From Nitrospira sp. (lineage in GTDB: Bacteria > Nitrospirota > Nitrospiria > Nitrospirales > Nitrospiraceae): a stretch of DNA of 63,862 bases. The notes beneath the pieces are model-generated. The model saw nothing but the letters and a program-made list of their open reading frames with translations. It was not told the origin of the DNA and did not search any database. The stretch covers positions 1 to 63,862 of the forward strand of contig JAOUMR010000008.1 in the NCBI GenBank assembly GCA_029881435.1. Reading direction: 5' to 3'. Positions 46,770-55,130 of this stretch are shown here, piece after piece. The translations under genes and the position numbers were made by a program. Position 1 is the first letter of the stretch. Each line of letters opens with the position of its first letter.

Positions 46770-48347
46770 TTACGCAGTGGGGCGAGGTTTTTTAATGCCG
46801 AGCTTCTGCATGCGCGACCGGAGCGTGTTGGGGTGGAGCCCAAGCCGGGCGGCGGCGCCCTGCTTTCCTTCGATGACCCAATCCACATTCTGTAGGATGC
46901 GGAGAATATGGCCTCGCTCAACCTCTTCCAGAGAATCGGCTATCGGCAACAGTGGGCCGGAGTTGCCCTGAAGCATCACATCGTCGATCTGAAGCAGTGG
47001 TCCCTTTGAGAGAATGGTGGCTCGTTCGATGACGTTTTCCAACTCACGGATGTTGCCGGGCCAGGCGTACTTCATCAGGCGTTCCATGGTCGATTCAGAT
47101 ACTCCGTCGATCTTTTTCCCGATCTTGCCGGAGAACTTACCGACAAATCGATTGACCAAGAGTGGAATATCAAGTGCACGAGCGGAGAGAGACGGTACCT
47201 CGATCGGAAACACATTCAGTCGGTACAGAAGATCGGCTCGGAAAGAGCCGGCCTTTACCGCCGCGTACAAATCACGATTCGTGGCAGCAATGACTCGGAC
47301 ATCGACTTTAATCGAATGACCGCTTCCGATCCGTTCGATTTCGCGCTCCTGCAACACCCGTAGCAGCTTGACCTGCGCATCCAGCGGCAACTCTCCGACT
47401 TCGTCCAAAAAGATCGTTCCGCCATCCGCCAACTCAAACCGCCCGATGCGGCGCTGTAATGCCCCGGTGAACGATCCCTTCTCATGTCCGAAGAGCTCGC
47501 TCTCGACCAAATTTGCAGGGATCGCTCCGCAGTTGACCTTCACCAGCGAGCGAGCCTTCCGTGGGCTGAGATTGTGAATGGCCCTCGCCATCAACTCCTT
47601 GCCGGTTCCAGTGTCTCCTCGGAGCAGGACCGTCGAATCCGTCGGCGCGACCTGTTCGATCTGTCGGAGCACCGTCATGATGCTCGGACTGTCGCCGATG
47701 ATCTCCTCGAAATTGTTCTGAGACTTCACCTCTTCACGGAGGTAGAGGTTCTCCGCCTCAAGTCGAGTTTTGAGCTGCGCCACCTCTGTAAAAAGCTGCG
47801 CATTCTTGATCGCAACCGCCGCTTGATTGGCAAAGATGTCCAACCGTTCGAACTCTTCGTCGCTCAGAGGCCTGCGCCCGAACATCGCGATGACGCCGAG
47901 TACGTCCCCGCGAAACACGAGGGGATAGCCGGCAAAGGACTGCAGTCCGTTGTCTTTCATCCATTGCTTGTTTGGGAGTCGATCGTCGCCGAGGACATCG
48001 TTGGTCTGCATCGGCCCAAACCCTTGAGCGATCTTTCCAATCTTGAGCGCCCCCAGCGGAATGCGGCGGTATTCTCCATTGAGATCGGTGTAGAGCCCCG
48101 CGCTCGCCTTGAGATGCAGACAGCGAGCCCGATTCGTGCAGTCTGCCGCTTTGTGACAATCGGCGCAGAGATCGCCGGGACCTAAGAGCCAGATGCGGGC
48201 AAAGGCACCGTCGAGCTCGTCTACGAGTCCTTGCGTGATGGTGGTCAGCACCACCTGAAGGTCGAGACTCGACGCCATCTGGAGCGTGATGCGCTCCAAC
48301 GCGTCGTGAGACGGGCGGGAAGGAACCCAAGAAGAGGGATCGTCCAT
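46770..48347 (-). CDS. GAF-domain sigma-54-dependent activator with four-Cys cluster
   Basis: 525 residues. A GAF domain (about 20-185) carries C61-x2-C64-x5-C70-x5-C76, a likely metal or iron-sulfur site that could sense redox, oxygen or NO. Then AAA+ with 'GDTGTGKE', the sigma-54 loop variant 'GSFTGA', 'GGTIFLDEVGEL' and 'AWPGNIRELENVIERA', and a C-terminal HTH ('GKQGAAARLGLHPNTLRSRMQKLGI'). It resembles NorR/FhlA-type regulators. The DsrE-PPOX-DUF1348 set follows it across a sigma-54 promoter and is its likely target. Confidence 0.92.
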   Translation of the reverse strand: MDDPSSWVPSRPSHDALERITLQMASSLDLQVVLTTITQGLVDELDGAFARIWLLGPGDLCADCHKAADCTNRARCLHLKASAGLYTDLNGEYRRIPLGALKIGKIAQGFGPMQTNDVLGDDRLPNKQWMKDNGLQSFAGYPLVFRGDVLGVIAMFGRRPLSDEEFERLDIFANQAAVAIKNAQLFTEVAQLKTRLEAENLYLREEVKSQNNFEEIIGDSPSIMTVLRQIEQVAPTDSTVLLRGDTGTGKELMARAIHNLSPRKARSLVKVNCGAIPANLVESELFGHEKGSFTGALQRRIGRFELADGGTIFLDEVGELPLDAQVKLLRVLQEREIERIGSGHSIKVDVRVIAATNRDLYAAVKAGSFRADLLYRLNVFPIEVPSLSARALDIPLLVNRFVGKFSGKIGKKIDGVSESTMERLMKYAWPGNIRELENVIERATILSKGPLLQIDDVMLQGNSGPLLPIADSLEEVERGHILRILQNVDWVIEGKQGAAARLGLHPNTLRSRMQKLGIKKPRPTA

Positions 48348-48671
48348 CTAGTGATCTCCGAGCCGGACATTGCCCAGCGTTGAGGACGATAAGTCCCTGA
48401 TAGGGGATTGTCAATCAGCAGAGGGGCGAGGTCGCCTTGCCGAACCAGTTATTTCATCCGCACGCAACTCGACCTCATGGTCGGCAATCCCACCCCACGA
48501 GTTCAATGCTTCGCCGTACCCTCAGTCGGTGGGGTTAGCGAGAGGGTTTAAGGGGACTGCTTCCTTATTCGCCTGGTGAATTCTGAGGGGGTGGCTATTG
48601 CAAAGCAGGTGGGTTGGCACTGATGGATTGCCAGGCCGTTACTCTTTCCTGGCCGACTCGCCAGTGTGTGA
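48348..48671. other. Intergenic region, nothing recognised
   Basis: About 320 bases between the divergent activator gene and the BrnT/BrnA promoter. No convincing gene or repeat. Confidence 0.35.
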
Positions 48672-48711
48672 TTGACAGCTCAGCGTCATCGCGTATATGG
48701 TTGCCATATAC
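48672..48711 (+). promoter_or_regulatory. BrnTA promoter with palindromic operator
   Basis: TTGACA (48672-48677, all six bases), a 16-base spacer and TATATG (48694-48699). The perfect palindrome GTATATGG-TTG-CCATATAC (48693-48711) overlaps the -10 box and ends 15 bases before the toxin ATG. BrnA antitoxins repress their own operon, so this is the expected operator. Confidence 0.7.
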
Positions 48712-48726
48712 AACATAAGGCATGAG

Positions 48727-49047
48727 ATGACGCGACTGCCGGGTGTGGAAGGGTTTAATTGGGACGAGGCAAATCTTGCCAAGAATTGGGAGAAGCACCG
48801 GGTTACTCCGTGGGAATGCGAGCAGATCTTCTTCAATCTACCGCTGGTGGTCGCCGATGACCTCGCCCATTCTATGGTGGAGCCTCGATATTACGTGCTG
48901 GGACAGACTGATGCCGGACGCCGCTTGTTTATCGTCTTCACCATCCGTCGACGGCGCATCCGTATTATTTCGGCCAGAGATATGAGTCCCAAGGAGCGGA
49001 GGATGTATCGTGACCAAACTCAAAAAAAGACCGACGTTCAAGAGTGA
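48727..49047 (+). CDS. brnT: BrnT family ribonuclease toxin
   Basis: 106 residues from the ATG at 48727, with AAGG six bases before it; an earlier in-frame ATG at 48697 would lie inside the promoter. 'FNWDEANLAKNWEKHRVTPWECEQIFFN' and 'YYVLGQTDAGRRLFIVFTIRRRRIRIISARDMSPKERRMY' are the BrnT pattern (RelE-like fold). BrnT cuts mRNA when free. The antitoxin gene overlaps its 3' end by 38 bases. Confidence 0.93.
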   Translation: MTRLPGVEGFNWDEANLAKNWEKHRVTPWECEQIFFNLPLVVADDLAHSMVEPRYYVLGQTDAGRRLFIVFTIRRRRIRIISARDMSPKERRMYRDQTQKKTDVQE

Positions 49048-49300
49048 AAAACAGGAAGCTGAGTTTTGGGTGTCACACGACTCAACGGAGTATGTCGACT
49101 ACGCCAAGAGTCGTCGGATGGTGTTTCCCCGGTTGAAGCCGTCCACCGAGACAATCTCGCTTCGTCTGCCGAAATCCCTCTTGGATCAACTCAAGACGAT
49201 CGCGAACAAACGCGACGTCCCGTATCAGACACTGCTCAAGCTCTTCGTGCTCGAACGCGTCCAGGCTGAGTTGCATCACAAACCCGCCAAAGCCTCTTAG
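49010..49300 (+). CDS. brnA: BrnA family antitoxin
   Basis: 96 residues from the GTG at 49010, with GGAGG six bases upstream. 'FWVSHDSTEYVDYAKSRRMVFPRLKPSTETISLRLPKSLLDQLKTIANKRDVPYQTLLKLFVLERV' is a ribbon-helix-helix DNA-binding domain with the BrnA N-terminal toxin-binding segment. It neutralises BrnT and represses the promoter through the palindrome at 48693-48711. Confidence 0.92.
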   Translation: MTKLKKRPTFKSEKQEAEFWVSHDSTEYVDYAKSRRMVFPRLKPSTETISLRLPKSLLDQLKTIANKRDVPYQTLLKLFVLERVQAELHHKPAKAS

Positions 49301-49375
49301 CGCGCTCCTGATCACGGCGATCCTGAAAAGCGGGGTTGAACGTGATGAGTGGAGTGGGTCAGAGCGAAAAGGGTC

Positions 49376-49819
49376 CTAGCACCGTGGCATGTTGTTCCGG
49401 GCCAAGACGTTCATCGTCACTTGGTCGGGCTTGCCGTCGAAGTATTTGAGCAATGCGGCTTTGAAGAGAGTGTTGTCGGTGGCAGCGGTCAGAAGCAGGG
49501 TCATGCAGGACCGGAATTTCAGATTGTCGGGGTAGGAGAAGATTTTCTCAGCGCGGTGACCATTCACGTCGAGCACAAGCTGCGTACATTCTCGGAGTCT
49601 TGGGCATAAGACAGGGTGCTGCAGATAGGTCCTGGCCTCGTCGAGCGAGCCAATGCCAAATTGCTGCGCCATCGCACTGTGCCCAAGACCTTGGATTTGC
49701 GGAAAGATGAACCAGATCCAGTGACTGGACTTTCTCCCGGCCCGCAGCTCAGCAAGGACTGCGTCATAGACGCACTCTTGAGCGTCGAGGAAGCGTTGTA
49801 GATTGTCAACGTCAGCCAT
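49376..49819 (-). CDS. DUF1810 family protein
   Basis: 147 residues. 'LQRFLDAQECVYDAVLAELRAGRKSSHWIWFIFPQIQGLGHSAMAQQFGI' and 'LRECTQLVLDVNGHRAEKIFSYPDNLKFRSCMTLF'-like text is the DUF1810 pattern. The family is related to a group of predicted calpastatin-like and small cytoplasmic proteins; its function is unknown. It is on the opposite strand to the BrnTA genes. Confidence 0.85.
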   Translation of the reverse strand: MADVDNLQRFLDAQECVYDAVLAELRAGRKSSHWIWFIFPQIQGLGHSAMAQQFGIGSLDEARTYLQHPVLCPRLRECTQLVLDVNGHRAEKIFSYPDNLKFRSCMTLLLTAATDNTLFKAALLKYFDGKPDQVTMNVLARNNMPRC

Positions 49820-49919
49820 GCGGTGTTCTTGTGAAGCGATGCGGTTTCAGGTTCCGTAGCATTTTGCAATATTCAGGATGTCCCTATTCTGCTCTCCTAT
49901 CTCACTGGTGGCGATCAGG

Positions 49920-52900
49920 CTACTGAGTGCCTTTACTATCAATACTGTTGTCAGAGTCGGTGTCGTCTTCTTCATAGTCCCTATTCCGCATTTCCCTTCT
50001 AGATTCGGCCCGACGCCGTTCGGATGCAATCATGAGGTCGAGCTCTGCAATATGCTTTTCAGCGAATGCTTTGACCGCAGGTCTTTCGTCTGTCAGCCAT
50101 TCGGTCAAAGCTACCTTCCTGGCCTGTAATGCCTCTGCAAAGCCAAATTCTCCCCTGACTACGCCCGTGTTGTCGATACTGACCCGGACCTCGTTCAATT
50201 TGTGCTGGTCATCTGGAAACCGCGACACAATTTCCTTCAACACACTGTGGGCGGAAGTGACACCGTCATAGTTCTGGAGTATCGCCAGTGCAAAATCTGC
50301 CTCCATATCACCGCCGGCTTTTGCCAAGTTGGCAAGTGCGGTAGCGAACTCGGTGGTGGGGTTGGGAAATACAATGCTGAGCAGGCGCCCACCTCGAAAC
50401 TGGAATAGCTGTCGGTCTATAGCGAACCACGATAGTCCCTTGCTGATTGCGAGCGACGGGTTCTTGGAGAGGTCTTTTTCAAGACCATGGAACTGAAATG
50501 GTACCGCCTCGAAACGATCTTCGTATTCAGCATCAGCAGTCTCCTGAGATAGCCGAGTCCCGAAATAGTCCCAAACCGCCTCTGGCTGGCGCTCGGCAAG
50601 TCTGGCCAAGACACGCTCGGCTTGATACTCTATCCTGCAAAGGTAGCCAAGATTTTTCAGGAGTTGAGTCGTCCTCTCCGGGCTCAATTCCTCAAAGAAC
50701 TTTGTGACCTTCTGCATAAACCACGCTTGTGAGACCCACCGAGAATCCTTTCGATCGTTCAAGAAGGTCAGAGCGTCTCGCACGAACGTGTCTGCGTCTG
50801 TAATTTTCTCGGTTCCGTAATACTCCAAAGCAAAGAGTAGGCAGTCGGTGACAGCCCCTTGGTCGTCTGTCGCAATTGCGCGTTTCAACAGGCGAGTGGC
50901 AAAGTCTGGCTTCGTAACATCTGCCTTGCGAAGGTGCCATGATATGCTCGTGAGCCTCCTTGCCGATTCAAGTTCGCCCTCCAAGATCCGCTCATAGATA
51001 TCGACTCGGCTGCTCTTGGCAAGTCCATTGAGGAAGCCTGGGAGAAAGTTGCGTAAGTCGTCAGAGGCCTTTGTGAAAATCCGGTCCGCGACCTCTGGCT
51101 TAGTCTCAGCCAACTTGCTGATAAAATTACCGTAAACTGGAAACGTGGCCAGATCAATCGACTTAGTTTCGGCGCAACGCTCGATAAAGTCGAACCAGTC
51201 GTTCTCGTTCTCCGAGTTGATGCCATCGATGTAGCGGTCCGCTTCCCTACGCCGATATTGGTCGGCTCCTTCGAGCTCGAAATCCTCATTGGTCCAGTGA
51301 TCTGGATAAACAGATCCAAACCCTACAAGGACCTTATATCGGACAAACTGGTCATCGACGTTTATGTGGTCACGAAACTTCAAGATAGCAGACATAAGCA
51401 GCTTGGCATCGGACTGACAATTGAATCGGTTTTCTGGGTCATCTGCAAAACCCTTCGCCCGTCGATAGTCGTAGAGGAATCGGTGCTCCAAGTGCTGCAG
51501 TAGCTCGTAGCTAGTAACCTGAGCACGTTGCGTCACGAATTCTACGATGCGTGTGGCATCCCTGAGCGTTGTAGCTAAGAGTTCATTTGAACATTGCCCC
51601 TTATGGGGGATCTTTGTTGCGGCGTCCAGAGCGATAAGAATTGTGCGCTTCTGTGCGTCATCGGTCGATCGGTCATATGCTGCGAATAGAGCTTTGAGCG
51701 CCTTGTCGCGAACAGCTGCGAGCTGTTCGGATACGGGCAGGGTGCCAGTGCTCATGACGACGGAATCGGCCTTCCACTTAGTGCCAGTGATGTCTGACTG
51801 AATGGCTTCGGTCCAGACGGCTAGCGCGATAGGCCGAACCTTGTCCACTTCGGCATCGCCCATTCCCGCAAGGTAATCCACCAATGCCATTTGATTCATT
51901 GGCCCCACCTGTTTGTACGCGTCGATGTTGTATTCGGACAGCTTCTTGACGATGTTCAGAATCTGCTGGCGGATATCTTCGTCTGGTTCGATGCGATAGA
52001 TATTAATAAGCAGCTGCAGAGTTCCAACTACATCGGCATAGCGCAGACTCCCAATGATCTCGAATACAAGCGACACAACGGCTTCGGCAAGGAAGCCTTC
52101 CATATTTCCGCGGGTCGTTTCTATAGGGACGGGCTCCGTGCAGCGTGCGGCTTTGACTGCCGTTAGCAAGGAGTCTTTCAGTCCCTCGTAGGCAGTCTGT
52201 GGGTCGTCGCAGATTGGAAGGGCGTAGTCTTTTAGGCCAGACAGAATCTCGTAACGCTCGTTGTTGTTCTGCGCATCATTCAGTAGCTTGGTAATGTCTT
52301 TGTCGAAGAGCTCCTTGCCTCGGAGGAGCCGTTCATAATCCTGTTGGGCTTTCTGAAACTCATACCCAGCTGGGATCAGGTACTTGTCCATGATTCGAGC
52401 AAATCGCCGCTCGATACCCTTCATGGCTTTCCCACCATAGCCATCTCCCAACTTGGTTTTGTAGAGAATGTCGTGGGAGGTCTCGGCCCAAGCATGCTCG
52501 AGAATGGTCTGAATCTGAATCTCGCACCGCAGGCCAGCAAACCTCGCATATTCTGGAAGGCTCAGGCGCTCCTCACGAAGCCGAATTGTATAGTGAACTG
52601 CGCGGTATCTGGTGCCTTGGTTCTCCTGAGTGGGATGGTGGATCTTGGCTGAATCCTCCTCGATCTCGAAATTGTCTCGGATCAGTGTTGATGCCAGGAA
52701 GCGATCAACATCGTTATTAGTGTAGAAGATGAGACGGGCGCCGGCGAGATCGCGCCGATCCAGCTCCAGTGTCTGTGTGTCGAGCTTGCCTGTCTCTATC
52801 AAACGACACCGCAAGCTCTCGACCCCTTTTGCGCGACACTGAATTGACTGAGGGCGAGGCAGATTGTCAGTGGCTAGGATGGCCTTCTTCAAGATGAAGC

Positions 52901-52964
52901 GGACCGTCTCAGCGAAGGCTTTGTAGGTCCCAAAATACCTCGTCTCGTAATCGTGAAGGTTCAC
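49920..52964 (-). CDS. RelA/SpoT-domain protein with long helical-repeat tail
   Basis: 1014 residues from a GTG at 52964. The N-terminal ~200 residues are a RelA/SpoT synthetase-like domain: 'RAKGVES' (44-50), 'RRDLAGARLIFY' (70-81), 'GTRYRAVHY' (117-125), 'CEIQIQTILEHAWAETSHDILYK' parts (147-169). The catalytic-type Asp, Glu, Arg and His are kept and there is no HD hydrolase domain. The remaining ~800 residues are helical without recognised domain, probably an alpha solenoid. The Ser/Asp-rich end is disordered. It could make (p)ppGpp/pppApp or modify tRNA as toxic small alarmone synthetases do. The TA context supports a defence role. Confidence 0.8.
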   Translation of the reverse strand: MNLHDYETRYFGTYKAFAETVRFILKKAILATDNLPRPQSIQCRAKGVESLRCRLIETGKLDTQTLELDRRDLAGARLIFYTNNDVDRFLASTLIRDNFEIEEDSAKIHHPTQENQGTRYRAVHYTIRLREERLSLPEYARFAGLRCEIQIQTILEHAWAETSHDILYKTKLGDGYGGKAMKGIERRFARIMDKYLIPAGYEFQKAQQDYERLLRGKELFDKDITKLLNDAQNNNERYEILSGLKDYALPICDDPQTAYEGLKDSLLTAVKAARCTEPVPIETTRGNMEGFLAEAVVSLVFEIIGSLRYADVVGTLQLLINIYRIEPDEDIRQQILNIVKKLSEYNIDAYKQVGPMNQMALVDYLAGMGDAEVDKVRPIALAVWTEAIQSDITGTKWKADSVVMSTGTLPVSEQLAAVRDKALKALFAAYDRSTDDAQKRTILIALDAATKIPHKGQCSNELLATTLRDATRIVEFVTQRAQVTSYELLQHLEHRFLYDYRRAKGFADDPENRFNCQSDAKLLMSAILKFRDHINVDDQFVRYKVLVGFGSVYPDHWTNEDFELEGADQYRRREADRYIDGINSENENDWFDFIERCAETKSIDLATFPVYGNFISKLAETKPEVADRIFTKASDDLRNFLPGFLNGLAKSSRVDIYERILEGELESARRLTSISWHLRKADVTKPDFATRLLKRAIATDDQGAVTDCLLFALEYYGTEKITDADTFVRDALTFLNDRKDSRWVSQAWFMQKVTKFFEELSPERTTQLLKNLGYLCRIEYQAERVLARLAERQPEAVWDYFGTRLSQETADAEYEDRFEAVPFQFHGLEKDLSKNPSLAISKGLSWFAIDRQLFQFRGGRLLSIVFPNPTTEFATALANLAKAGGDMEADFALAILQNYDGVTSAHSVLKEIVSRFPDDQHKLNEVRVSIDNTGVVRGEFGFAEALQARKVALTEWLTDERPAVKAFAEKHIAELDLMIASERRRAESRREMRNRDYEEDDTDSDNSIDSKGTQ

Positions 52965-53495
52965 GGCACTCAGATATCTCTTTCAATCTCACTCAAAAAA
53001 GAAAATGGTGTCAGAAAGCAATTCGCCTACCGGACGGTTCGTATCAACACCTACCCCTGTGTTGGGTAAAATGCAATGACACATAGGGGATATTCGGGTT
53101 CTTTTTGGCGAATTTCCTCATCGTGGGAGGTCGGCGGGGAGAGTGGCGGGCAAGAATCTTCGCTAGCACTCAGTGCGGCTACAAATCGTCGAAGTCGCTC
53201 ACGGTTTATCTCGCTCAGCCGGTTGGGCTCTAACATGTCCTGATTGAAGGCTGCCGGGAGACTTCTTCGATCCGGTCCGCCGGAATGGCGGTGAACTCGT
53301 CGCGCACTTCCTGAGGAATGCCTTCTTTGCCGAGGTTGTCGATCGCGGCCCTGTGGCTCATCAAGCCGATGTAGTCGTGCCGTACCACGCTCTACCGTGG
53401 CAGATACTACGAGGTTGAGTTCTTTCAGCGGCCTGCCCGCGATAGGGCGTCCATCCTGTGGATGATGCGAAGGGGGGACTTGGTCCTGACCGCTC
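52965..53495. other. Intergenic region with decayed small-gene traces
   Basis: About 530 bases between the RelA/SpoT gene and the DUF2283 gene. Besides the frame at 53230-53388, the reverse-strand text near 53395-53470 ('GRPIAGRPLKELNLVVSATVERG') looks coding in another frame, suggesting a frame-damaged gene. Neither part is recognised. Confidence 0.35.
53230..53388 (-). pseudogene. Fragment of an unrecognised small gene
   Basis: A reverse-strand frame from a GTG at 53388 (ATG at 53361) to TAG at 53230 reads 'HDYIGLMSHRAAIDNLGKEG' then 'IPQEVRDEFTAIPADRIEEVSRQ', which has coding-like composition. Adjacent sequence in the neighbouring frame also looks coding, so a frameshift is likely. No family can be given. 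Confidence 0.3.
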
Positions 53496-53693
53496 TTAGG
53501 CGGCAATCTGCTCAAACGAAAAATGAGGAATATCCGCTCGATCTCGGGCGTGCTCGATCGTCAGGGCACAGATATGTCCATCCTGATCGATATCGAGTTG
53601 CGTGTTCTCATCGAGGTCCCTGGTTTCTGCTACGGCTGCCGCTTTAAACTCAATATGGAGCGTATCCGTGTCTTGAAAATACTTGATCGTCAT
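53496..53693 (-). CDS. DUF2283 protein
   Basis: 65 residues. 'MTIKYFQDTDTLHIEFKAAAVAETRDLDENTQLDIDQDGHICALTIEHA' is the DUF2283 pattern. Its start lies in an ATGA overlap with the DUF4258 gene. DUF4258/DUF2283 pairs are a known toxin-antitoxin-like arrangement, and DUF2283 is the presumed antitoxin. GGGGA nine bases upstream supports the start. Confidence 0.85.
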   Translation of the reverse strand: MTIKYFQDTDTLHIEFKAAAVAETRDLDENTQLDIDQDGHICALTIEHARDRADIPHFSFEQIAA

Positions 53694-53926
53694 GATTTGA
53701 ATCCCCTGTCAAAAAATGCGTTGTGGACCGTCTCATGATCCGACAGCAACACCACCCGCAGGTACCGGTTCTCCAACTCTTTGATCGGCGCCCAGCGCCG
53801 GATACGTCCATCCTGTTGCACAACCTCTCTCACCGGACTACTGATCACCCGCTGGATCCACTCTTCCTGAATGAGGGCGCGATCAGGGCGCTGCCGAATG
53901 AACTCGAAGTACTTTGTACATTTCAC
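53690..53926 (-). CDS. DUF4258 protein
   Basis: About 78 residues from a GTG at 53926 ('VKCTKYFEFIRQRPDRALIQEEWIQRV'); the frame extends to 53965 but homologues start here. 'RVISSPVREVVQQDGRIRRWAPIKELENRYLRVVLLSDHETVHNAFFDRGF' is the DUF4258 pattern, related to the RelE/BrnT-like toxin fold. It overlaps the DUF2283 gene by ATGA, so they are coupled. Confidence 0.83.
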   Translation of the reverse strand: MKCTKYFEFIRQRPDRALIQEEWIQRVISSPVREVVQQDGRIRRWAPIKELENRYLRVVLLSDHETVHNAFFDRGFKS

Positions 53927-54047
53927 CGTGCGCTCGCACCCGACAGCCCTGCACAGCACATGCATCGGAGTGTACTGAAAACCATGTCGTTTATCTACTA
54001 TTCCTCCTCAATGGTTTCCCGCAGCGGTCAATCCTGATCCCGCCATC

Positions 54048-55130
54048 CTAGCTATACTGATCCCACGTATCACATTGTTTAATCGACCAGAACACGGCCT
54101 CCTTGAGTTTCTTGAGGATCACGTTGTCGGGGTCTCGAATAGCCTGCAGCTTTCTGTCGAGATCGTAGAGGGGCTGTATGGCACGCTTATCCGGTATCTT
54201 GCCGAGTGCCCACGCGACTTCCGTCAAGACGGTCCAATCTGTCTTTGGATCCTGGAGCTTCCCCAATAACGGAAGCACCACGGACACATCCCCATGGATG
54301 CCACCGATCTGCCCAAGTCCTTTCGCGGCGGCTGCCTGAATCTCTAATTGAGGCGAGGAATTCATCATGTCGATGAGAAGCGGAATGCCATCCTTCCCAA
54401 GATTGCCCATGGCGACGAGCGCCTGTTTCGCAAGATCTCGGTCCTTGAGCGCTTCTTTCAGTTTTGGCAGCGCTTCGTCTGCCTGCATTTCCCCCAGGAG
54501 CGACATGATTTTGATTTTTCGAGCCTGGCTGGTATCCGGGGAGTCGACCATCTTGAGGAGGCGATCGGCATGGCCCCATTCTGCCGCCAAGAGGAGGGGG
54601 AATTCATACTGTTCCAGCGCTTCCTGTAACTTGGTCAACGAATACACGCCGGGATCAGCTGCCTGAATGGCTTGTGCGGCCGCAACCGCGTCCTCAAACT
54701 CTGTGCGCACTTCCTTCTGCCAGTTGATCTTCATGCCTCCCAGGAGATAGGTGAGCTGGCAGGCAGGGCCTTTCCAAAGCCGAGCCGGGGCGTCCGGAAG
54801 GTCCGCGTCTCCGCCAGTTGCTGTCGTGCCTTCCCAGGTCTTGCGTTGCTCGCATTTGACCCGAAAAACGACATCATGAGGGGTAGCAGGGTCTCGAACA
54901 GTCGCGTATCCGACTTCGCTGAGACGCTCCGCAACAATGTCAGCCAAGGCAGTACTCTGTGCTTCGCCTTGATCAGTGCGGGCGAGGACGTGGACCAATA
55001 TGGTCTGAATGTGCTCCAGCTGAGTTCGCTGCTCTGGTGTGAAGTATTCGCGGTAGGCCAGCGCGAGACTGTGTAATAGACTTAGAGCTAAGCAGACCCC
55101 AAGTCCAGATACAACGAATCGAGTTCGCAT
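54048..55130 (-). CDS. Secreted HEAT-repeat protein
   Basis: 360 residues. A signal peptide ('LALSLLHSLALA') is followed by a region of about 140 residues and then four or more HEAT/PBS repeats ('EALPKLKEALKDRDLAKQALVAMGNLGKDGIPLLIDMMNSSPQLEIQAAAAKGLGQIGG'). Such repeats form a curved scaffold for protein contact. AGAGGTG precedes the ATG. It is divergent from the atpHAGDC operon; a role in that operon is not implied. Confidence 0.78.
   Translation of the reverse strand: MRTRFVVSGLGVCLALSLLHSLALAYREYFTPEQRTQLEHIQTILVHVLARTDQGEAQSTALADIVAERLSEVGYATVRDPATPHDVVFRVKCEQRKTWEGTTATGGDADLPDAPARLWKGPACQLTYLLGGMKINWQKEVRTEFEDAVAAAQAIQAADPGVYSLTKLQEALEQYEFPLLLAAEWGHADRLLKMVDSPDTSQARKIKIMSLLGEMQADEALPKLKEALKDRDLAKQALVAMGNLGKDGIPLLIDMMNSSPQLEIQAAAAKGLGQIGGIHGDVSVVLPLLGKLQDPKTDWTVLTEVAWALGKIPDKRAIQPLYDLDRKLQAIRDPDNVILKKLKEAVFWSIKQCDTWDQYS

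Follow-up and report, generated by a model that had tools for sequence, protein, structure and literature searches.

A RelA/SpoT synthetase–solenoid fusion protein of Nitrospira sp. as a candidate sensor–effector immunity protein

The DNA analyzed here, referred to as the window, is a 63,862-nucleotide stretch of Nitrospira sp. (contig JAOUMR010000008.1, GenBank assembly GCA_029881435.1) which carries a gene encoding a RelA/SpoT homologue (RSH) synthetase domain joined to a long C-terminal tail predicted to form an alpha-solenoid (Table 1). It is proposed, with a probability of roughly two in three, that the product is a single-gene sensor–effector immunity (abortive-infection) protein carried as mobile cargo. 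In this model, the alpha-solenoid at the C-terminus would keep the N-terminal RelA/SpoT-type pyrophosphokinase inactive. A trigger, most probably a product of the phage or a change brought about by infection, would bind the solenoid and free the enzyme, which would then halt growth by pyrophosphorylating tRNA 3′-CCA ends or by making an alarmone. Autoinhibition, release, trigger, chemistry and anti-phage outcome are what we infer here; one tail is found on mobile DNA, has no antitoxin and is combined with more than one kind of enzyme, either in cis or by way of an adaptor, which is most simply explained by a receptor that would hold a toxic effector in check and then let it go. The window protein probably represents a kind of infection sensor, not described before, that acts by shutting down the cell.

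Domain layout and effector exchange

The open reading frame (ORF) begins with a GTG start codon, encodes 1014 amino acids and matches RelA_SpoT (PF04607) in Pfam with an E-value of 5e-11 (43–47 bits against a cut-off of 27). The residues expected of a synthetase are in place, namely R44/K46, D72-x-x-G75-x-R77, the G-loop tyrosine Y120 and E148, with the usual arginine of the E-x-Q-x-R-T motif being Gln152. An earlier reading made from the sequence alone (the sequence-only reading) had already described these motifs as intact, and had noted the lack of a hydrolase domain; no HD hydrolase domain was found in the protein. D72 and E148 are invariant among the RSH-tail proteins, and the PF04607 match with its catalytic Asp and Glu places the domain within the RSH superfamily. 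When the synthetase piece was folded alone, the best Foldseek matches were small alarmone synthetases and CapRel (7ztb), and the front end is similar to enzymes that make alarmones or poison tRNA. The genome of the window (3.7 Mb) has two RelA_SpoT genes, the second being a 727-amino-acid frame which is presumably the long housekeeping Rel. The PADLOC candidate family PDC-S33 was rejected as an assignment, with PDLC04999 aligning only at model positions 64–176 of 349, in the synthetase part.

No family match was obtained for tail residues 215–1014 in Pfam, NCBIfam or PHROGs, as the sequence-only reading had anticipated. Its suggestion of an 800-residue solenoid also agrees well with the AlphaFold2 model built with 20 homologues, in which residues ~215–995 (~780 residues) are predicted to be an all-helical alpha-solenoid with a pLDDT mostly of 75–95. 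The synthetase part is poor in this full-length model because just seven alignment rows cover it. Fold matches of the tail in the PDB were general HEAT/ARM scaffolds with whole-length TM-scores of about 0.1–0.3, and with such generic proteins returned no specific structural relative is claimed. Among close RSH-tail proteins, parts of the region 561–840 vary more than the synthetase (many blocks at 59–68% versus 71–82%), the exception being one block of this C-terminal half at 77%; the variation is compatible with, though not decisive for, a putative recognition surface. Literature searches, which were limited for subscription papers, found no description of the tail. Other genomes and phyla contain full-length homologues with 65–75% identity, indicating that the fusion in the window is more than chance.

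Homologues of the tail were sought with a mid-tail alignment lacking the Sphingobium row, because an alignment of the whole tail proved too diverse for pattern scanning. Scanning one genome per species in this way gave 21 loci, comprising 14 PIN + tail pairs, six single RSH-tail genes and one locus (L086) that runs off the end of its contig. Plasmids yielded a Rhizobium protein with 65% identity, a Sphingobium protein with 30% and two tail-only proteins of Pseudanabaena and Legionella, each located 2 bp behind a PIN-domain gene. Viral contigs gave no match when scanned with the single protein, and the mid-tail alignment later gave six IMG/VR contigs (two PIN pairs, three RSH-tail genes and one further pair, L111), some with terminase/portal genes or a tyrosine integrase adjoining. 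In total, the tail is fused to a synthetase in 15 loci, while in 17 loci from several phyla it is a separate protein of ~800 amino acids encoded immediately downstream of a PIN_12 nuclease gene, the latter count taking L079 and L080 once and including the two viral-contig pairs and two plasmids. A Nitrospirota genome likewise has a PIN + tail pair. The spacing from PIN stop to tail start is −26 to +8 bp, and PIN_12 matches were obtained for the tested upstream proteins, that of L079 falling below the curated cut-off. The tail is homologous over its whole length in both arrangements, fused to or directly behind the effector. The effector is swapped while the tail is kept.

Two further arrangements were found. 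The first gene of the L111 pair, on a prophage contig, is not a PIN gene (L111:8550–9392, nuclease-like); its product shares a C-terminal adaptor of ~93 columns with the PIN proteins (hhalign, E 1.8e-12). Searches of Pfam, PADLOC and PDB sequences left this protein unclassified, and by eye only its core appears PD-(D/E)XK-like. The other is an Aulosira plasmid protein in which weak Pfam matches to EAD10 and an NTPase are followed by a remote, though significant, relative of the tail (655 columns, E 4e-21). A negative-control hhalign comparison of the tail with one Dsr2-like protein gave an E-value of 0.047 and a probability of 1%.

On balance, we lean towards the tail being an undescribed prokaryotic family of immune-receptor solenoids, present in several phyla, prophages and plasmids, whose effectors would be RSH enzymes in cis, PIN or other nucleases in trans with a shared winged-helix-like adaptor and, remotely, EAD-STAND modules. 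RSH toxins and PIN RNases both act on RNA or translation. Bacterial innate immunity is built at its core on modular sensors that can take different toxic effectors, and only a few receptor scaffolds have been identified; this tail, absent from every family library that was searched, is paired with at least two well-defined effectors, both predicted to hit RNA or translation. The occurrence of one receptor in a two-gene (PIN) and a one-gene (RSH) form would allow trigger and activation to be compared with the sensor constant and the effector changed.

Distribution, mobility and alternative explanations

A tree of 30 tails placed the RSH-tails in one group (100/100), with the PIN-tails surrounding the L111 row; the Aulosira row was very long and its placement was not possible. 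The window tail grouped with those of Gallionella, Burkholderiales, Nitrospira, Ensifer and Rhodospirillales, the nearest being from Gallionella, a member of another phylum. This mixture of phyla around the window tail indicates transfer. Mobile carriage was observed in the form of plasmids, viral contigs and integrase-linked copies in other Nitrospiraceae. Within the family of the window, the RSH-tail gene was present in seven of 175 genomes, with three of the seven copies being broken by stops or split. The protein could instead be an alarmone synthetase that is regulated by its solenoid and serves ordinary stress signalling (in starvation or host physiology) and not defence, as its catalytic residues are intact and an auxiliary synthetase is plausible in a genome where the sole other RelA_SpoT match is the presumed housekeeping Rel. 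Such a role is unlikely, however, for a gene with this patchy and partly broken presence, inter-phylum transfer and viral-contig and plasmid carriage, and for a tail on which nucleases replace the synthetase.

Among the 15 RSH-tail loci, no neighbour was conserved except tyrosine integrases in four, and the adjacent antitoxin that characterizes toxSAS modules was not found. Neighbours of the PIN-tail pairs were shared only within single genera (rpoD/dnaG in Legionella; Pseudanabaena), aside from an integrase common to L037 and L110. A conserved third gene was not found across the RSH-tail loci, nor across PIN-tail loci outside single genera. These observations bear on the possibility of a selfish stability or addiction cassette kept by mobile elements with no immune role, which would fit the integrase and plasmid linkage and an insertion hotspot that also holds BrnTA and other toxin–antitoxin genes. 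Without a conserved adjacent antitoxin it appears improbable, as an 800-residue solenoid is also far bigger than an antitoxin requires and the tail shares homology with the C-terminal repeats of an EAD-NTPase protein. Inter-element competition, with prophages, satellites or plasmids using the protein as a weapon against other mobile elements (for example in superinfection exclusion), would suit the six IMG/VR contigs but is very unlikely as an explanation of its own, many copies being chromosomal and the idea being nearly a special case of the immunity proposal rather than a separate mechanism.

Several observations also weigh against the immunity proposal. A tally of 77 neighbours of homologous loci was a mixture with few defence-like genes. 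The argument from a defence island made in the sequence-only reading is therefore uneven, and the weak enrichment of defence genes near the loci is given no leading place here; restriction and toxin–antitoxin genes do occur in the hotspot of relatives, but most homologous loci lie outside obvious defence islands. One clear island is that of the Rhizobium plasmid copy, which has a Dsr2-like SIR2 gene, a caspase, TIR genes, VapC and an integrase nearby. Core locations with a conserved non-defence context, which that reading had taken as potential counter-evidence, were mostly not seen, the neighbours not being conserved; the exception is the Legionella PIN-tail pair, which adjoins the core genes rpoD/dnaG in three species (L037, L081 and L082). 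In the enzyme itself, the motif arginine is replaced in all RSH-tail proteins, by Gln in nearly all and by His in one, and the G-loop Tyr is Phe in two viral-contig members (L113 and L114), so that enzyme specificity may differ. The confidence of the model for the RSH piece is also moderate (pLDDT 67.7).

Relation to known systems

By analogy, the window protein may work like CapRel or DSR2, while being a member of neither and forming a lineage of its own. In CapRel, a fused synthetase is restrained and is released by a phage capsid protein (PMC9712102). Both are single-gene proteins in which an N-terminal synthetase-fold domain with a G-loop Tyr is followed in cis by a regulatory region at the C-terminus. 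However, this region is a small pseudo-zinc-finger in CapRel, whereas the window protein has the ~780-residue predicted alpha-solenoid, which is also a partner of PIN nucleases. Membership of CapRel was rejected, as no pseudo-zinc-finger antitoxin was recognized after residue 215, where the sequence is predicted to be almost entirely helical solenoid and has no family match. The toxin-like synthetase with a sensor-like tail suggested by the sequence-only reading gains support from the separable tail, the effector exchange, the mobile contexts and the insertion hotspot, but not as a CapRel.

In DSR2, a helical solenoid binds the phage tail-tube protein and activates the N-terminal enzyme (PMC11087589). 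The window protein shares with it the order of an N-terminal toxic enzyme (here predicted) and a helical solenoid, the binding of the trigger by the solenoid being a property of DSR2. It differs in that its effector is RSH and not SIR2, with no SIR2 NADase at the N-terminus, and the resemblance holds at the level of a helical solenoid only, as homology of the tail to the one Dsr2-like protein was not detectable by hhalign. The toxSAS modules FaRel2 and PhRel2 (PMC11559606) likewise have an effector domain of the RSH family; the window system differs in lacking a separate antitoxin gene and in its long fused tail.

In EAD/STAND conflict systems one scaffold stays constant and the effectors are exchanged, with PIN and RelA domains listed among these effectors (PMC7159879; PMC8195603). 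The exchangeable effectors of the present family are similar, and the Aulosira protein joins an EAD10-NTPase part (weak matches) to the tail. The window protein, in contrast, had neither an NTPase nor an EAD detectable with Pfam and is not a STAND/EAD NTPase. For the DefensePredictor systems DS-3 and DS-5, a PIN nuclease is needed for defence, with a second essential protein in DS-5 (PMC13092281). Their partner domains (DUF5830 and AcrIF4-like) are unlike the tail, a distinction made by description only.

Insertion hotspot and variant loci

The accessory island suggested by the sequence-only reading is supported by comparison, which shows an insertion of 5.7 kb between a sigma-54 regulator gene and a HEAT gene, at a site that is empty in six relatives. 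Computed from the listed gene coordinates, the distance between these two genes is 76–89 bp in six genomes of the genus and 4–15 kb in ten others. Inserts of relatives hold a type IV restriction enzyme, a cytosine methylase with a type II restriction enzyme and PADLOC candidate families, as well as an HD-CE/HATPase protein, BrnTA relatives, DUF1810 and, by eye, HigBA-like pairs. The 3′ end of the HEAT gene (residues 277–360) is duplicated inside the insert in several genomes (loci L095–L108 examined), as expected if the site is a repeated integration target. At the borders of the window island only short imperfect direct repeats were found, none convincing as attachment sites. Of the neighbours named by the sequence-only reading, the BrnT toxin with its CopG-type antitoxin and the DUF2283 protein are real, but the DUF4258 assignment is not supported, since the 91-amino-acid ORF matches no Pfam family.

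Table 1. Features of the window at and around the synthetase–solenoid gene
Feature	Coordinates	Strand	Remarks
RelA/SpoT synthetase–alpha-solenoid fusion gene	49920..52964	-	1014 aa, GTG start
RelA_SpoT (PF04607) synthetase domain	52452..52835	-	residues 44-171
Solenoid tail module (predicted)	49965..52322	-	residues ~215-1000; homologous to ~800-aa partner of PIN nucleases
Accessory insertion	48348..54050		between sigma-54 regulator and HEAT gene
Sigma-54 activator with GAF domain, hotspot border	46770..48347	-	flank
HEAT-repeat protein adjoining ATP synthase genes, hotspot border	54048..55130	-	flank
BrnT ribonuclease toxin	48697..49047	+	PF04365, E 1.2e-23
CopG-type antitoxin (BrnA)	49010..49300	+	PF12441, E 4.9e-27
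DUF1810 protein	49376..49819	-	recurrent in hotspot
DUF2283 protein	53496..53693	-	PF10049, E 2.3e-15
91-aa ORF	53690..53965	-	no Pfam family

DUF1810 genes were present in eight of the ten inserts examined (L095–L102; not found in L103 and L106), at times in two or three copies. In the same hotspot, a further genome has a 264-amino-acid RelA_SpoT protein beside a ParA/MinD-like ATPase and a 197-amino-acid protein (L097:7383–9780), possibly another RSH-based system.

Variants of the tail were also noted. Rhizobiaceae RSH-tail copies (L034:6653–10585 and L092:8705–12577) have an extra C-terminal poly-gamma-glutamate-hydrolase domain. Only the last ~220 residues of the tail (784–1008) were found behind a PilZ-like N-terminal region in roughly 40 genomes of the Nitrospira family, with one or two such proteins per genome at 47–61% identity to the window tail. 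Examples are found in the window genome itself (G000:C94:5419–6096; L023:5401–6504) and in L011, L016 and L018–L021, the PilZ match being shown for L011. These proteins may be a domesticated version of the sensor end or a decoy of it.

Two of the PIN-tail loci, L079:4930–7819 and L080:1691–5091, are near-identical. Their contigs are assigned to Smithella and Bacteroidota, and one of these assignments probably reflects a binning error. Core genes are present in the L. adelaidensis record named 'plasmid 9', which therefore seems to be chromosomal. Upstream of another PIN-tail pair lies a ribonucleotide reductase large subunit gene (L073:4007–8140) interrupted by an intein containing a LAGLIDADG domain.
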